DNA from: Oscillospiraceae bacterium
GTDB lineage: Bacteria; Bacillota; Clostridia; Oscillospirales; Oscillospiraceae
Assembly (NCBI GenBank): GCA_910575505.1
Contig: CAJTFK010000007.1
Span: 1 to 64,000 of the forward strand
Direction: 5' to 3'
DNA length: 64,000 bases
Each line of letters begins with the position of its first letter. Position 1 is the first letter of the stretch. Below the pieces are notes generated by a model, which saw only the letters and a program-made list of their open reading frames with translations, was not told the origin of the DNA and ran no database searches. Of this stretch, positions 811 to 58,432 are shown in pieces. Both the position numbers and the translations under genes were made by a program.

Positions 811-834
811 AGCAATTCTCCTTTATCTTTATCG

Positions 835-966
835 CCTGTATTCACAACCCTTGAACGCTGTCTGAGCAGTCTTTTTTCCGCCATACCGCGCCGGGGTCTG
901 CGAAAGATCTCCCTGCCCGGCAGGAAGTATCCCCGCTTACCCGGCATCCCCCGGCTGTGAATACAG
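835..966. mobile_element. MITE-like inverted-repeat element, copy 1 (internally deleted)
   Basis: A 131-bp element is bounded by CTGTATTCACA (836-846) and its exact inverse TGTGAATACAG (956-966). It aligns along its length with the elements at 19789-19948 and, inverted, 58240-58398, but lacks their central hairpin of about 28 bp. It lies in the leader between the presumed promoter and the ROK gene and would be transcribed as part of that leader. It has no coding capacity, so any movement would need transposase from elsewhere. Confidence 0.75.
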
Positions 967-1098
967 ATTCCTGATCTGGGCGTTCCACAGCCGGCACGGC
1001 TGAAAAAATCCGGAGGATTTTCTTCAGAAGAGCGCCGTATCGCGGCGCTCCGGGCGCGTGACCCCGCGGGGGAGGCGGACTGCGGTGACTCCACAACC

Positions 1099-1624: not shown

Positions 1625-1712
1625 TGGTGCGCGAGGCGGGACTTGAACCCGCACGTCCGTAAAGGACACTAGAACCTGAATCTAGCGAGTCTGCCAATTC
1701 CACCACTCGCGC
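1625..1712 (-). tRNA. tRNA-Leu (anticodon CAG), copy 2
   Basis: The minus strand folds as a class II tRNA. The acceptor stem pairs GCGCGAG with CTCGCGC. The anticodon loop TTCAGGT sits on the stem CTAGA/TCTAG, there is a long variable arm, the T arm is GCGGGTTCAAGTCCCGC, and CCA is encoded. It is identical to the tRNA at 1816-1903. Confidence 0.95.
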
Positions 1713-1815
1713 GCATCGTATGAACTTGGACCGGCGGAAAGAACTTGGACCGGCGAAAAAAACCGGCGCGGGGGAGAGAAAGAGAGGGGCCCCGCTCCGC
1801 CGGAGCGGAGCCCTC

Positions 1816-1903
1816 TGGTGCGCGAGGCGGGACTTGAACCCGCACGTCCGTAAAGGACACTAGAACCTGAATCTAGCGAGTCTGCCAATTCCACCACTCG
1901 CGC
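1816..1903 (-). tRNA. tRNA-Leu (anticodon CAG), copy 1
   Basis: Same sequence as the tRNA at 1625-1712, including the encoded CCA. The spacer between the copies contains GAACTTGGACCGGCG twice in tandem, as expected from a recent local duplication. CUG is a heavily used leucine codon in the neighbouring GC-rich genes, which may favour two copies. Confidence 0.95.
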
Positions 1904-1933
1904 ATGGCATGGCGCCCTTCCGGGAAGGGACTT

Positions 1934-2019
1934 TGGTGCGGCTGACGGGACTTGAACCCACACGTCGATACGACACCAGCACCTCAAGCTGGCCTGTCTA
2001 CCAGTTCCAGCACAGCCGC
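1934..2019 (-). tRNA. tRNA-Leu (anticodon GAG)
   Basis: Class II tRNA on the minus strand. The acceptor stem pairs GCGGCTG with CAGCCGC, the anticodon loop is TTGAGGT between CCAGC and GCTGG, and CCA is encoded. It is the promoter-proximal gene of the three-tRNA operon and reads CUC/CUU codons. Confidence 0.95.
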
Positions 2020-8905: not shown

Positions 8906-8932
8906 GAACTTACCCGGATACAATTACATATC

Positions 8933-9074
8933 CTTATCAAGAGTGGCGGAGGGAACGGCCCAATGAAGCCACGGCAACCTGCTTTGTAAGGTGCCAATTC
9001 CGACGGAGACCGACAGATGAGGAGCGAGCGAGATGTTTCTCCGCACGTTTCGACGTCGAAACGCGCGGTTTTTT
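8933..9074 (+). promoter_or_regulatory. SAM-I (S-box) riboswitch with terminator, controlling metK
   Basis: The leader carries the conserved S-box core in order: TTATCAAGAG, GGCGGAGGGAA, GGCCCAATGAAGCC, CGGCAACC and AAGGTGCCAATTCC. The expression platform is a strong intrinsic terminator at 9041-9074: arms built on CGTTTCGA/TCGAAACG, extended by CCGC/GCGG, then six T. By the known mechanism, SAM binding lets the terminator form and switches metK off. About 170 nt of apparently unstructured leader separate it from metK. Confidence 0.95.
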
Positions 9075-15530: not shown

Positions 15531-17090
15531 TTATCCCTCCGCGGGAAACAGCTCCTGCCAGAGATACCGGAAATCCACGGAGGCGCCCCACAGCTTCCGG
15601 CCCTCCGGGCCCTCCAGGGCCTGCTTCAGATCCCGCCGGGCTCCCTCGTCGTCGCCGGTCCAGTGAAGCCGGTAGGCCCGGCTGACCAGGTACTCCCTGG
15701 CGTGGGCGGGGTCCAGCTCCATCAGCCGGGTCAGGTCCCCCACGTGCCGCTGGTAGCGGGTTCGGGTGGACACCGTGGGACACCGGGCCCGGAGTATGAG
15801 CACGTTGTCCGGATCCAGCTCCAGGGCGGCGGTGAGGCAGCGGTCCATCTCCGGCGTTTTCCGAAGCCCCTTGAAGCACCAGGCCCGCAGCACCTGGAGC
15901 CGCCAGTCCGGCGCCTCCTCAAAGCGCCGGGCGCACCACTCCGCCGCCTCCTTGTACGCGCTTTTATCCAGCAGGGCGAAGGCCTCCGGGTACGCCTCCC
16001 GGCAGAGCTGGCCGGCATGGCTGAGGGCGTTGTCCTCCAGGATGTCCGGGAGATCCAGCAGGGGAGAAGGGGCCGCCTGGCCCGCCGCGCCGCTGGAGCT
16101 GTTCCCTTTTTTTGTTTCCGGCTTTTTTGCTTCCGGCTTCGCCGGTTTTTTTGCTTCCGGCTCCGCCAGCGCCTTCTCTTCGGGCTTTGCCGGTTTTTTT
16201 GCTCCCGGCTTCGCCGGTTTTTTTGCTTCCGGCTTTGCCGGCTTTTTGGTTTCCGGCGGCGCGGTGTATTCCGGCGCGTCGAACTGGGGGTCGAAGGCCC
16301 CGATGAGGCCCTCCATCACATCCGACTGTTTCCCGCAGGCGGGACAGACATAGCCGCCGTAATAGCAGGCCAGCAGCTCTTCTCCCTCCCAGTCTCCCAT
16401 CTGGTGAAGGATGCGGCGGAAGCGTGTGAACGCCGCCGGTTTTTTCTGCCAGAAGCGGAGGGGCCGGAGCTTCCGCCGCTGCTTTCCGTCGATGAGCTCC
16501 AGGTCCTCGTCCAGATAGCCGCAGTGCGTGCAGTGGACATAGCAGGTTTCCCACTGGTTCATCACCAGGGCGAAGGCCTCCCGCCGGTCCCCCAGCAGGC
16601 CGTACAGCCCCAGGCAGAGCCGCCGCCGCTCAAAGGTTCCCTCCCGGCGGAGCTTTTTCCTGTTTTCCTTTAAAAAGCGCTCCGCCCGCTCCGCCAGAAT
16701 GGCGGCGGCCTCCCGGCAGCTCTCCGTGATGTCCTCCGGCAGCCTGGGGGCAGGTTCGTTCTCCCAGGTTACGTCGGTGGCGAGGCAGATTCCGATTTCC
16801 GAGAAAATCAGCAGCTGCCAGTCGTAGTCCCCGGCCTTTTGGCCCAGCAGCTTTACCATGTAGGGCAGGGCCAGGTACAGCGCCGGGTAGAAGCTCATCT
16901 GGTGGGACAGGTTTTCACACAGGTTGTCAAAGGCGACGCGCTCCTGGTCCTTCTCCTCCGGGTCCAGCCGCCGCAGCTTCACCCGGGGAGCCGTGGATTC
17001 CCCCATTAAAAACGCAATCTCCCCGGAAACGCTGCCATACGCGCCGGGGTACTGCTCCCAGAGCGCAGAATCCAGCGGAATGAATTTCAT
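15531..17090 (-). CDS. Hypothetical protein with KPAKPEA-repeat linker and TPR-like C-terminus
   Basis: 519 residues, ATG 17088-17090 behind GGAGG. The N-terminal half (about 1-270) is a globular region with two Cys pairs (CTHCG near 190, CPACG near 250), possibly one or two zinc ribbons. Residues about 285-335 are an imperfect tandem repeat of KKPAKPEA, a flexible linker encoded by a GC-rich direct repeat. The C-terminal part (about 350-519) has helical pairs like tetratricopeptide repeats. No signal peptide. It lies 33 bp downstream of the DHHW gene and may be the last gene of that operon. Function unknown. Confidence 0.7.
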   Translation of the reverse strand: MKFIPLDSALWEQYPGAYGSVSGEIAFLMGESTAPRVKLRRLDPEEKDQERVAFDNLCENLSHQMSFYPALYLALPYMVKLLGQKAGDYDWQLLIFSEIGICLATDVTWENEPAPRLPEDITESCREAAAILAERAERFLKENRKKLRREGTFERRRLCLGLYGLLGDRREAFALVMNQWETCYVHCTHCGYLDEDLELIDGKQRRKLRPLRFWQKKPAAFTRFRRILHQMGDWEGEELLACYYGGYVCPACGKQSDVMEGLIGAFDPQFDAPEYTAPPETKKPAKPEAKKPAKPGAKKPAKPEEKALAEPEAKKPAKPEAKKPETKKGNSSSGAAGQAAPSPLLDLPDILEDNALSHAGQLCREAYPEAFALLDKSAYKEAAEWCARRFEEAPDWRLQVLRAWCFKGLRKTPEMDRCLTAALELDPDNVLILRARCPTVSTRTRYQRHVGDLTRLMELDPAHAREYLVSRAYRLHWTGDDEGARRDLKQALEGPEGRKLWGASVDFRYLWQELFPAEG

Positions 17091-19652: not shown

Positions 19653-19788
19653 GAAAGAACCGTCCTTTATGTGGGGATAGGGGGAACCCCGGCGGCAGAA
19701 CGGTCCTGCCGTCCCGCCGCTGTTTTGCAGCCGAAACGCAGTCCGGACTCCTTTTCAACCGCTGAGATTCGCCCGTTAAACTCAGAAG
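19653..19788. other. Upstream region of the MBOAT operon
   Basis: 136 bp with no gene and no convincing promoter boxes. It continues into the inverted-repeat element at 19789, so the operon's promoter may lie within or beyond that element. Confidence 0.4.
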
Positions 19789-19948
19789 CTGTATTCATAA
19801 CCGCTGAACGCTGCCTGAACGGGCTTTTTCCCGCCATGCCGCGCCGGTTTCCCCAGCAATCCGTCAGGATTGCTGGGGGGCGCGAACGATTTCCCTGTCT
19901 GACAGGAAAAATTCCCGCCCATCCGGCATTCCCCGGCTATGAATACAG
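19789..19948. mobile_element. MITE-like inverted-repeat element, copy 2 (full length)
   Basis: 160 bp from CTGTATTCATA (19789-19799) to TATGAATACAG (19938-19948). Inside are a strong hairpin, CAGCAATCC-GTCA-GGATTGCTG (about 19854-19875), and a short palindrome, CCTGTCTGACAGG. It aligns nearly base for base with the inverse of copy 3 (58240-58398). It separates the MBOAT operon from the DUF4358 gene. Non-coding. Confidence 0.8.
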
Positions 19949-19983
19949 GTCATCAGTTTGATAGCGTCTGCCGGACGCCGCCG

Positions 19984-34502: not shown

Positions 34503-35552
34503 GAACAAACAACTGCAAACCGCTTCGCCTCTCCCCGGCGGGCCGGCGGCGGACGCACCGCCGCGGAGCCCGTGATCCCTCTGCCCAATCCCGGCGAGGG
34601 CGGGCCCGTCTATCCCGGCAGCCCTGATCCCGGCCAGATTCCCGTAATTCCTCTGCCCAATCCCGGCGAGGGCGGGCCCGTCTACCCCGGCAACTCTGAT
34701 CCCGGTCAGATTCCCGTGATTCCCCTGCCCAATCCCGGTGAGGGCGGCCCGGTCTATCCCGGCGACGACGGCTCTGTGGTGGAGCCCGTGATCCCTCTGC
34801 CCAATCCCGGCGAGGGCGGGCCCGTCTATCCCGGCAACAACTGGAGCTGCCCCAGCGGCATCTGCGGGGGCATCACCATCCTGCCGGGCATCATCGGCAC
34901 GGTCTGGCCCGGCGCGTCCAAGGTCCGCTTCCTCAACGCCGCCTTCGGATACCCCAATTTCCGCATCTTCGTGAACAACAACCGCTTTGTGAATCTGCTG
35001 AATTACGCCTCTGTCACCGGCTACGGCCGGGTGGCCGCAGGCTATCAGACGGTCACGGTGGCCGGTCCGGACGGCTATATCTACATTCAGAAGACTCTGC
35101 CCTTCCAGGTGGGTGCGGCCACCACCGTTGCCATCATCAACACCGCCGGAGGCATGGACCTGCTGCAGATTGCCGACAGCTGCTGCCCGCCCACCAACGG
35201 ATTTTCCAATTTCCGCATCGGCAACCTGGCCTTTAACAGCGGACCCCTGGACGTCATCATGAGCGACGGACGGGTGGTTTACGGCGACCTGCGCTTCAAG
35301 GAGATCGGCGCCTTCAAGCGCATCATGCCCGGAACCTATCAGTTCTTCTACGCGGAGACGGACCTGGTGCCCATGCCTGCCTCCGTGGACATCGAGACCC
35401 TGGACTCCGCGTGGCTGGGGGTTTACCCGCCTCACGAGACCTTCGGCTCCCTGTATCTGAATGTCACCAGCAACGCCATTTACAGCGTCTACCTGCTCCA
35501 GAGCGGCTCGGGCCGGAACAATATTCAGAATTTGATTCTGATGGACCGCTGA
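34500..35552 (+). CDS. DUF4397 protein with four 24-residue proline/glycine repeats
   Basis: 350 residues. Residues 24-119 are four tandem copies of a 24-residue unit built on PVIPLPNPGEGGPVYPG, encoded by 72-bp repeats (34569-34856). A Cys-containing linker (SCPSGICGG) follows, then two DUF4397-like beta domains (from about 140, KVRFLNAAFGYPNFRIFVNN; from about 235, NFRIGNLAFNSGPLDVIMSDGR). DUF4397 is found in Firmicute surface and spore-associated proteins. There is no signal peptide and no SLH or sortase motif, so localisation is unclear. Function unknown. Confidence 0.82.
   Translation: MEQTTANRFASPRRAGGGRTAAEPVIPLPNPGEGGPVYPGSPDPGQIPVIPLPNPGEGGPVYPGNSDPGQIPVIPLPNPGEGGPVYPGDDGSVVEPVIPLPNPGEGGPVYPGNNWSCPSGICGGITILPGIIGTVWPGASKVRFLNAAFGYPNFRIFVNNNRFVNLLNYASVTGYGRVAAGYQTVTVAGPDGYIYIQKTLPFQVGAATTVAIINTAGGMDLLQIADSCCPPTNGFSNFRIGNLAFNSGPLDVIMSDGRVVYGDLRFKEIGAFKRIMPGTYQFFYAETDLVPMPASVDIETLDSAWLGVYPPHETFGSLYLNVTSNAIYSVYLLQSGSGRNNIQNLILMDR
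34569..34856 (+). repeat. 72-bp coding tandem repeat, four units
   Basis: Four in-frame 72-bp units encode the PLPNPGEGGPVYPG repeat. Units 1-2 are most alike; the last codons of units 3-4 diverge (GDDGSVVE, GNNWSCPS). Because 72 is a multiple of three, gain or loss of units keeps the frame. Confidence 0.85.
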
Positions 35553-39026: not shown

Positions 39027-39411
39027 GCGGGGCTGCGGGATTCGGGAGAGTTCCAGCCGGGCGGGGCCGTTTTCCGGAGGCGCGGCGCTTCCGAAGGACG
39101 GGGCGGGACAGAGCCCGCCCCCTACAGGGCTTCTTCCTGATAAAGTGCGTGAGCGGGTATGCCTCGTGATACCGGCGAATGGAGGCACGAGATTCGGGAG
39201 AGTTCCAGCCGTGTGGGGCCGGCCTCCTCATTCTACCTGACCCCAGGCGCGGCACTAGTGAATAGGGCTGCAAGTTTCGGAAGATTCCCATCCGCGTGGG
39301 GCTATCTTCCGCATTCCGCCTGACTCCAGGCGCGGCCCAGATGAACAGAGTTTCAAGTTTCGGAAGACTCCCATCTGCGTGCTTCTATTTTCCGCTTTCC
39401 GCCTGACCCCA
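39011..39411. repeat. Degenerate 83-bp tandem repeat array
   Basis: Two exact-length 83-bp units (39246-39328 and 39329-39411) each begin GGCGCGGC and end CCTGAC(T/C)CCA. A third, more diverged unit precedes them (39163-39245), and a fourth partial unit starts at 39011 inside the 3' end of the AI-2E gene. The stretch between the first and second units carries a CTCTGT-loop hairpin (39096-39122). In the best units CGGAAGA pairs with TCTTCCG (or TTTTCCG), so each unit can form a hairpin. No ORF. Confidence 0.85.
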
Positions 39412-39444
39412 GGCGCGGCCTCAAAAAGAAGTTTTGGAAAGGCC

Positions 39445-43155: not shown

Positions 43156-43946
43156 TGCTGGAGATCCGGGATCTCCGGGTCCGCTTCCATAACCGGGACC
43201 GGGACGCGGTGGCCGGAATCAGCCTCTCCATTCAGGACGGGGAAATCCTGGGCCTGGTGGGGGAATCCGGCTCCGGCAAGTCCGTCACCGCCATGAGCGT
43301 GGCGGGCCTGCTGCCCCGGAAGCAGTGCGATTACTCCGGGCAGGTGCTTCTGGACGGCAGGGAGCTGCTCCACGCGGACCGGGCCGTCCTGCGGACCGTT
43401 CAGGGCCGGGACATCGGCGTGGTGTTCCAGGAGCCCCAGAGCGCCCTGGACCCCCTGACCCGCATCGGGCCCCAGGTGGAGGAGTCCCTGCGCGTCCATA
43501 CGGATCAGAACCGGGCCCAACGGCGGGCCCTGGCCCTGGAGGCCCTGGAGGCGGTGGAGCTGCCCCGGCCTGAGGAGGTCTACCGCAAATATCCCCACGA
43601 GCTTTCCGGGGGCATGCTCCAGCGGGTCTGCATCGCCGCCGCCGTCATCACACGGCCCCGGCTGCTGCTGCTGGACGAGCCCACCACCGCCCTGGACGTG
43701 ACCATTCAGGCCCAGATTCTGGAGCTGCTGAAAAAGCTGAACCGGGAGTCCGGCGTATCCATGCTCTTCATCTCCCACAACCTGAACGTGGTGCGGAAGC
43801 TCTGCGGACGGGTGGCGGTGATGCAGCGGGGAACGCTGGTGGAGGAGGGCCTCTCCGGCGAGGTGTTCCGCTGCCCCCGGCATCCCTACACGCAGCGTCT
43901 GGTTGCCGCCATCCCCACCCGAACCCGAAGGGAGGCCCGGCCATGA
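43155..43946 (+). CDS. dppD: Peptide/nickel-type ABC transporter ATPase (DppD family)
   Basis: 263 residues from ATG 43155, overlapping the dppC stop (TGATG). Walker [11 protein letters not shown]-loop [10 protein letters not shown], signature LSGGMLQR, Walker [14 protein letters not shown]-loop ISHNL. It is shorter than E. coli DppD and ends without the usual Cys-rich C-terminal extension (PxCxxxxC), so a cluster-binding tail is missing. Confidence 0.92.
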
Positions 43947-44011
43947 CGGAAGGGCGCAGACAGGGCGTCTGCCTCCGGGACGCGCCTCAAAAAACGGAAG
44001 GAGGAGCCCCT

Positions 44012-44755
44012 ATGAGCGAGCAGAGGCCTCTGGTGCTGTCCCTGCGGCATGTGGACAGCGGCTATAACCGGCGGGGCGGCCTCTTCCGCCGGCGGGAACG
44101 GCAGGAGGTCCTTCACGACGTGACCTTTGACGTGTACCACGGGGAAATTCTGGGTCTGGTGGGGGAGTCCGGCACCGGCAAATCCACCCTGGCCCGGACC
44201 ATTCTGGGGCTGGTGGAGCCGGACCGGGGGCAGGTCATCCACTACACCAGGCGGCCCCAGATGATTTTTCAGGACCCCTACAGCTCCCTGAATCCCGCCT
44301 ACAGTGTGGCCTGGATTCTGGAGGAGCCCCTGCGGGTTTACGGAAAATACGGCGCGGCGGAGCGGAAGCGCCGGGTCCGGGAGATGCTGGAGCGGGTGGA
44401 GCTGCCCCCCGAGTGCCTGGCCGCCCGGCCCGACGAGCTCTCCGGCGGACAGCGGCAGCGGGTCAGCATTGCCGCCGCCCTGATCCGGCGGCCCCGGTTC
44501 CTCATTGCCGACGAGCCGGTGTCCGCCCTGGACGTCACCATCCAGGCCCAGATTCTGGCCCTGCTCCAGGACCTGCGGCGGGATCTGGAGCTGAGCTTCC
44601 TCTTCATCTCCCACGACCTGAACGTGGTTTACCAGCTCTGCGACCGGGTATTGGTGATGAAGGAGGGGCGCATCGTGGAGCAGGGAACGGCGGACGAGAT
44701 TTTTGACCGCCCGAAGGAGGACTACACGAAACAGCTGCTGGCGGCGGCGGACTAA
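44012..44755 (+). CDS. dppF: Peptide/nickel-type ABC transporter ATPase (DppF family)
   Basis: 247 residues from ATG 44012 with GGAGGAG upstream; an alternative ATG at 43943 overlaps the previous stop. Walker [24 protein letters not shown], signature LSGGQRQR, Walker [14 protein letters not shown]-loop ISHDL. It pairs with the DppD homologue as the ATPase heterodimer. Confidence 0.92.
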
Positions 44756-44756
44756 A

Positions 44757-44916
44757 GCCTGCCCGCATAAACCGGATGTGCGGATTTCCGAGCAGATTTT
44801 TGCCGGATGCAAGGCAGAAATTTACAGGCGTACTGACGCACGTCAAGGGTTTTTAACGAAGCAGACGGCAAAATTTGCCGGAGAGACGTGCGTGTGGGCT
44901 TATGTAAACAGGCCCT
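44757..44916. other. About 160-bp non-coding element with imperfect inverted ends
   Basis: The ends GCCTGCCCGCATAA and TTATGTAAACAGGC are imperfect inverses (10 of 14). Inside are TTTTGCCGGATGCAAGGCAG and the palindrome GGCAAAATTTGCC (about 44870-44882). It fills the gap between dppF and the DUF3810 gene. No U tract. Either a structured RNA or a second kind of short inverted-repeat element. Confidence 0.45.
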
Positions 44917-58059: not shown

Positions 58060-58082
58060 GACGTCGCTGCAAGCTCCACATC

Positions 58083-58123
58083 CCCCGCCCCGCCGGACCC
58101 GCTCCGGCGGGGGGCCGGGGGTG
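58083..58123 (+). terminator. Intercistronic GC hairpin after the permease gene
   Basis: CCCCGCCGGA/TCCGGCGGGG arms with extended C/G runs; no T tract. A possible attenuator within the operon. Confidence 0.5.
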
Positions 58124-58239
58124 AGAAACGCTCCCCTGCTCCGCCTCCCTTCAGGGGGGGAACCCTTCTCCCTGCGGGGGGATGGGAGATGGGGCCGCCG
58201 ACGCACGGCGGGCTGTATCGGGATTCTATGTTTAAGAAC

Positions 58240-58398
58240 CTGTATTCATAGCCGGGGGATGCTGGATGGGCGGGAATTTTTCCTGTCAGACAGGGAGATC
58301 TTTCGTGCCCGCAGCAATCCTGACGGATTGCAGGGGAAACCGACGCAGTATGGCAGGAAAAAGGCCGTTCAGACAGCGTTCGGCGGTTGTGAATACAG
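58240..58398. mobile_element. MITE-like inverted-repeat element, copy 3 (inverted, full length)
   Basis: 159 bp from CTGTATTCATA (58240-58250) to TGTGAATACAG (58388-58398), aligned in inverse orientation with copy 2, including the GGATTGC/GCAATCC hairpin. The immediate flanks extend the inverted repeat (AGAAC / GTTCT). It sits between the permease and ATPase genes of one operon, 34 bp before the ATPase start, so it is transcribed with them. Confidence 0.8.
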
Positions 58399-58432
58399 GT
58401 TCTAAGATAAGATCAGAAAGGAAATGTGCCAT

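Follow-up and report, generated by a model that had tools for sequence, protein, structure and literature searches.

The repeats and their neighbours

The 64,000-nucleotide stretch of an Oscillospiraceae genome analysed here (the window) carries three copies of a short repeat, designated MITE family A, and a fourth, divergent member of the same kind (Table 1). The genome comprises 4.26 Mb in 115 contigs and is 94.9% complete. An earlier note, made from the sequence alone, had described three segments with shared ends, the third of them inverted, and all three were found as described; the true ends of the family, GAACCTGTATTCAYA...TRTGAATACAGGTTC (GAAC...GTTC), lie about 4 bp further out on each side. 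The fourth member had been missed. The end pattern CTGTATTCAYARCC, allowing up to 2 mismatches, occurs 7 times in the window, where 0.57 occurrences are expected and 0 of 100 shuffles reach that number; 6 of these 7 are ends of the three copies, which align with one another at 83–93% along stretches of 60–99 nt.

Copy 1 is flanked by TTA and CTG, its duplication being no longer intact, and lies upstream of an open frame that matches no Pfam family, about 20 bp from its start codon (810, minus strand). Copy 3 has a permease-type gene (PF00528) on one side and, on the other, an ABC-transporter ATPase gene (PF00005); it ends 21 bp upstream of the start codon of the latter at 58424. The TAA at 44753–44755 beside the fourth member is the stop codon of the ORF 43943–44755; this member is written on the minus strand because its stable fold, like that of copy 3, reads on the plus strand. 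The GC-rich hairpin repeat preceding copy 3 also looks mobile or variable, since variants of it occur in genomes G151 and G150 and it is missing in G154, G155 and G162.

Table 1. Repeats and other features of the window; family A copies are given with refined ends
Feature	Position	Strand	Remarks
MITE family A copy 1	832..970	+	Decayed; an internal deletion took out the terminal hairpin
tRNA genes	1628..2019	-	Three genes, two in identical 88-bp copies
SAM riboswitch	8931..9023		85.5 bits
Direct repeats	16115..16281		Spacing 24 bp
MITE family A copy 2	19785..19952	+	Full length; script-called flanks TCA/TCA
Direct repeats	34543..34836		Spacing 72 bp
Direct repeats	39177..39425		Spacing 83 bp
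Fourth member	44755..44915	-	Ends GGGCCTGTTTACATAA / AAGCCTGCCCGCATAA; flanks TAA/TGA; covariance model R2 64.9 bits, E 4.4e-14
Hairpin repeat	58060..58230		GC-rich; between the permease-type gene and copy 3
MITE family A copy 3	58236..58402	-	Full length; TAA/TAA duplication
Terminal hairpin of copy 3	58314..58331		Arms GCAATCC and GGATTGC, the internal hairpin of the earlier note

Searching the whole genome with a sequence-only model (R1) gave at least 100 A-type regions at E<=1e-5, 79 of them full length and 56 on the minus and 44 on the plus strand, among the best 150 of 2624 candidates that were scored; the expectation of dozens of copies genome-wide was an understatement. With 13 regions of a family B and 2 others, the total at this threshold is at least 115. 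A blast search returned at least 46 matches, 40 of them strong (best 40 of 126 candidates scored). The elements are short, multi-copy, present in both orientations and without a transposase frame, as MITEs are. The earlier description of them as non-coding is right for most copies but not proven for all, 14 of 76 lying inside a gene in our home-made gene calls. Six deletion derivatives of 46–84 bp keep little beyond both ends, and five MITEs of related genomes carry an extra inserted module (e.g. ...GGAAGAAATTCCGCTC...CGCTCCATTCCTTCC...), complete module-bearing elements measuring 239–327 bp against the usual 161 bp. A motif similar to this module stands at an intergenic site in G151.

Target duplication, an empty site and distribution

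TNA stands on both sides of 46 of the 76 refined copies in the genome, and the middle base is the same in 32 of these 46 (12.3 expected; 0 of 100,000 permutations). Identical TNA pairs likewise flank 43 of 68 elements in genomes of relatives. The remaining 14 TNA-flanked copies differ in the middle base. In 12 of them the two flanks pair TAA with TGA or TCA with TTA, and reading meets a TAA stop first and a TGA second in 11 of these 12. Read on one strand or the other, any TNA spells a stop codon. According to home-made gene calls, insertions fall exactly at a called stop for 5 of 76 copies of this genome and for 11 of 58 elements of relatives, a further 10 of the 68 having been dropped for short flanks; an earlier, poorer gene caller had placed 6 of 76 at stops, against 100 of 1198 other intergenic TNA sites.

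The copy 3 site, the one site compared between relatives, lacks the element at nine orthologous congener junction loci, and copies are thus not always held at orthologous positions. At the closest empty locus (L248, in G151) the flanks of copy 3 are nearly contiguous and read GGGATTCTAAGTTAAGATCAG, where this genome has GGGATTCTATGTTTAA[element]TAAGATAAGATCAG; a few further bases differ. Presence is patchy: matches occur in 18 of 150 family genomes (this one included) and in 9 of 24 congeners, counts that include some core-only matches to other element families. A scan of a genome collection yielded 99 stretches, and the 80 listed are titled Oscillibacter, Flavonifractor, Pseudoflavonifractor, Intestinimonas, Oscillospiraceae or Clostridia, apart from one titled only 'uncultured bacterium'. 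Elements also insert into each other, a family B element lying inside a family A element at one locus and an A inside an A at another, and at G000:C7:124560-124886 (G000 being the genome of the window) two elements of different families adjoin with a single TNA triplet (TTA, plus strand) between them.

An insertion sequence with matching ends

Among PF01609 matches in 15 genomes we found, in a congener (L260:1154-1978), an 825-bp IS whose ends, GAATCTGTATTCACAA and GAAGCTGTATTCATAA, are each flanked on the outside by TTA. Its transposase, an intact 256-aa frame, passes the NCBIfam IS5 model NF033580 (176.6 bits, cut-off 110) and matches PF13340 and PF01609. Over 16 bp the left end of copy 2 and the right end of this IS agree in every base; the sequence common to MITE and IS comprises only these roughly 16 bp at the ends, and no long match was found between the interior of the IS and the MITE. 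An 824-bp relative, 88% identical in the best segment and flanked by TAA/TAA, lies on a viral contig (L270). Six other close relatives, partly broken, have GTATTCA with CAC on the left and CAT on the right, and a more distant one (60%) has CAG, that is, another base after GTATTCA; at position 14 of the MITE ends, C is present at 72 of 76 left ends and T at 59 of 76 right ends. The L260 IS is a likely autonomous partner of the family A MITEs.

Both the L260 and the L270 IS fit the published IS1031 group of the IS5 family, for which a TNA target and a 3-bp duplication are described (PMC12016507), and this fit supports the suggestion that the repeats are transposon derivatives, as do the TNA duplications, the nine empty loci and the patchy presence. 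A described member of the IS1031 subgroup, ISLrh, measures 857 bp, has 17-bp ends (GAACCTGTCTAGTATCT) and inserts at TNA with a 3-bp repeat; its ends share the start GAACCTGT with the family A MITEs and diverge after 8 bp (PMC12016507). Unlike these, ISLrh is an autonomous IS of Lacticaseibacillus, and the available text on it mentions no structured core (PMC12016507).

The transposase with the same terminal repeats, which the earlier note had proposed to look for, thus exists in relatives but has no match in G000 itself, and a search of 400 family genomes at E<=1e-20 detected the L260 type in just 3, a distribution that counts against the explanation given below. Inverted-repeat scans around the PF01609, PF13340 and PF13586 matches of this genome (12, 4 and 4) gave no IS with these ends. 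Several other candidates were set aside: the end matches on two viral contigs (L031 and L034) are chance matches inside phage genes, three pairs of ends 1–2 kb apart are each two neighbouring elements and no IS, and a 41-bp match in a Novosphingobium plasmid without the GTATTCA end was taken as chance. A fourth pair of ends 1–2 kb apart occurs at L202.

A rod-like fold on one strand

Copies 2 and 3 each form one fold over their whole length that was equalled in 0 of 200 shuffles (z -5.97 and -9.66, respectively); for copy 3 its energy is -91.2 kcal/mol. The GCAATCC/GGATTGC hairpin that the earlier note took to be conserved is present in copies 2 and 3 but lost from copy 1, and it forms only the tip of a single rod of about 161 nt, in which a long stem is interrupted by regular internal loops with CAAGG and CGCAG loop segments. 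The rod is far more stable on one strand, the one beginning GAACCTGTATTCATARCCGG in 75 of 76 copies in the genome and in all 46 copies of relatives, and the corresponding one in all 15 B-like elements. In A2, a set of 47 diverse copies, the consensus energy is -43 on the stable strand and -8 on the other; on set A1 in the orientation of the earlier note, which is the weak strand, RNAalifold reached no more than -23 kcal/mol, with 4 two-sided pairs.

The 52 pairs of the A2 consensus are 95.1% intact, and 161 cells have changed on both sides, against 46.5 in shuffled and at most 63 in slid controls, compensatory changes that bear out the structured character proposed for the repeat. By type, 1974 cells are Watson-Crick, 346 G-U and 52 A-C. 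Both arms contribute to the G-U pairs, one of which (position 14) is accounted for by the asymmetry of the transposon ends. The skew weakens when the register gives G-U and A-C the same treatment (603:347 in this genome, 264:178 in relatives and 139:57 in family B). A one-shot alignment of the 76 copies (5 pairs, 224 columns) was replaced by mapping to the consensus, in which 73 of the 76 were used. Rfam 15 gave no match overlapping the repeats in the window at the gathering threshold, only two poor matches around copy 2 (best E 0.36) and none at E<=0.1 at ten loci with other members.

The same core under other terminal repeats

A covariance model of the element core (R2) was built, and at sites of which R1 had picked up just the central part it recovers the core, mostly at full length. 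It also finds the fourth window member. The core occurs with at least 9 different types of terminal repeat, several known from one or two copies only: TACTAATATCTA, GGCCTTGTTTGAAAA (flanks CTA/TAG), GAGCCTATCCGCAAATAA, GGGTGTATCTGAAAA, CATCCTCTCTTGGCA, AGGCATCACCGCACAATT and more at other loci, GAGCCTGTTTAAAA of family B in this genome, GAAGCTGTACCAATAGG, and the ends of the fourth window member. Some types, with a common GARNCTGT start, may be related. The CTA/TAG type may have an IS5-type partner of its own, because one genome (G117) has an IS that is flanked by CTAG, ends in GGCTTGTTTGAAAAATG and carries a PF13340 frame, split over two ORFs. Element lengths stay near 161 across the ends, and in 29 of the 31 places listed (some doubtful) the strand preference is again that of family A, the exceptions being L296, a partial match, and L229.

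Covariation was evaluated in A3, a set of 27 elements of which none was used to train R2, although their fitting to the model favours it and neither the rows nor the eleven representatives drawn up are independent of one another. Two-sided changes occur at 47 of the 52 pairs and 90.9% of cells pair; 331 cells are doubly changed, against 106.5 after shuffling. Shuffling lowers the covariation score from 0.662 to 0.231, and slid controls score no higher than 0.134. Covariation in the terminal helix follows from the inverted repeats at the transposon ends, and weight is therefore placed on the internal pairs, whose G-U:A-C ratio is 148:21 in A3 and 60:9 in the eleven representatives, some of which share an end type.

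What the fold may be for

In the 73 copies of this genome compared with the consensus, G-U:A-C among changes is 10:4 for singletons, 24:16 for changes in up to 2 copies, 45:40 in up to 3 and 89:79 in up to 5, with no significant skew of low-frequency changes to G-U, and the commoner variants lean to A-C (139:177 in up to 10 copies, 188:267 overall). Orientation relative to co-directional neighbouring genes (20:16 and 14:8, home-made gene calls) shows no significant bias. In the absence of either bias the resident copies, in which no maintenance of the fold was detectable, appear neutral, and within the limited power of these counts we infer that selection, if any, acts on the propagating lineage. 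The role in RNA stability that the earlier note considered gains no support, given neither fold maintenance in resident copies nor an orientation bias.

The simplest alternative is an ordinary IS1031-type MITE whose interior palindrome is a decaying terminal inverted repeat, with a fold that has no role. The TIRs, the TNA target, the IS partner and the empty site would account for presence and spread, and the neutrality of low-frequency changes for pairing (24:16, 45:40) agrees with it. A decaying palindrome loses pairs, yet across differing ends two-sided changes are seen at 47 of 52 pairs, lengths stay near 161 and mismatches favour G-U on one strand, and we regard this alternative as unlikely. 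Selection might also be dispensed with if the G-U excess came from strand-biased mutation (e.g. C to T) in a master lineage. A C-to-T change on the folded strand would yield many of the G-U pairs, and such a process could account for part of the skew; as the whole cause it is improbable, as both arms contribute, the two-sided replacements in A3 are left over and elements of other end types show the skew again.

Two further alternatives grant the fold a role. Host-serving structured RNAs spread by transposition are described for ERIC, Correia and BIME (PMC2229807, PMC3049150), and an mRNA stabiliser, attenuator or RNase target of this kind would suit the very stable fold and the position of copy 3 between two transporter genes. 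The lack of significant orientation bias, the lack of pairing retention in resident copies and the patchy presence even among congeners argue against it, and make it very improbable. The fold could instead act as single-stranded DNA, in the lagging-strand template or in a transposition intermediate. G-T is better than A-C in DNA as well, so the strand asymmetry fits, and a need for the fold only while the element moves agrees with its lack of maintenance in resident copies. TNA duplication and a DDE transposase rather fit double-stranded cut-and-paste, and this alternative is doubtful.

The explanation that we prefer is that the family A repeats are non-autonomous MITEs, and that a transposase of the IS5 family and IS1031 type would move them in trans, recognising GAANCNGTATTCA[C/T]A ends and inserting at TNA; the matching ends and the duplications are read directly from the sequence, from which mobilisation in trans is inferred. 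Family A would belong to a superfamily of Oscillospiraceae elements of about 161 bp that share one conserved single-strand rod under many terminal repeats, and the fold would be selected on the propagating element lineage and not on resident copies. We are confident of the MITE/IS5 part and consider the whole, with a selected shared fold, quite probable; the lean of common resident variants to A-C, the model-fitted A3 and the weaker skew in the alike register speak against the selection part. The fold would most likely act as read-through RNA that makes the insertion tolerable to the host or helps the element to spread, a suggestion that we put forward tentatively, with a role of ssDNA during replication or transposition as the alternative. 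A wider reading, which falls a little short of an even chance, sees in the strand-specific rod of 161 nt a mobile module of structured nucleic acid that has been fitted with the terminal repeats of several different IS5-family groups and has dispersed among Oscillospiraceae; such a selfish RNA (or ssDNA) would exchange its transposon ends and retain its fold.

Relation to known repeats

The closest parallels are small mobile repeats with folds. RUP of S. pneumoniae exists in 108–110 small non-coding copies whose ends match an IS, folds tightly with paired TIRs and is proposed to be mobilized by IS630-Spn1; it differs in its 107-bp length, AT-richness, TA target and IS630 partner, and the available text reports no core common to several TIR types (PMC2229807, PMC3049150). 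ERIC, YPAL and Correia are likewise small mobile repeats whose RNA folds, with effects on mRNA reported for some (PMC2229807, PMC3049150), and differ in having other hosts and other ends, while family A shows no sign of a host-level function. A survey of structured RNAs in the human microbiome lists 250 palindromic candidates, and the element could be among them, unrecognised; the term 'transpos' is absent from its main text (PMC8040213). A partial literature search found no published description of this element. REP sequences are dispersed palindromes of 20–40 bp units, and these repeats resemble them in being palindromic and scattered. REP elements are not known to make a TNA duplication and go with a RAYT, not with a DDE transposase.

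By its ends and behaviour the element is a MITE, and an unusual one, with one conserved strand-specific fold under many ends. MITEs are usually seen as passive IS debris and are characterised by their ends. In these elements the picture is the other way round, with an interior fold that persists under differing ends, which suggests that the interior does something for the element. Why so many mobile repeats of bacteria are tightly folded can thereby be put to the test. The elements are also numerous in some gut Oscillospiraceae, and many of the contigs examined end inside one, so that they may help to break draft assemblies.
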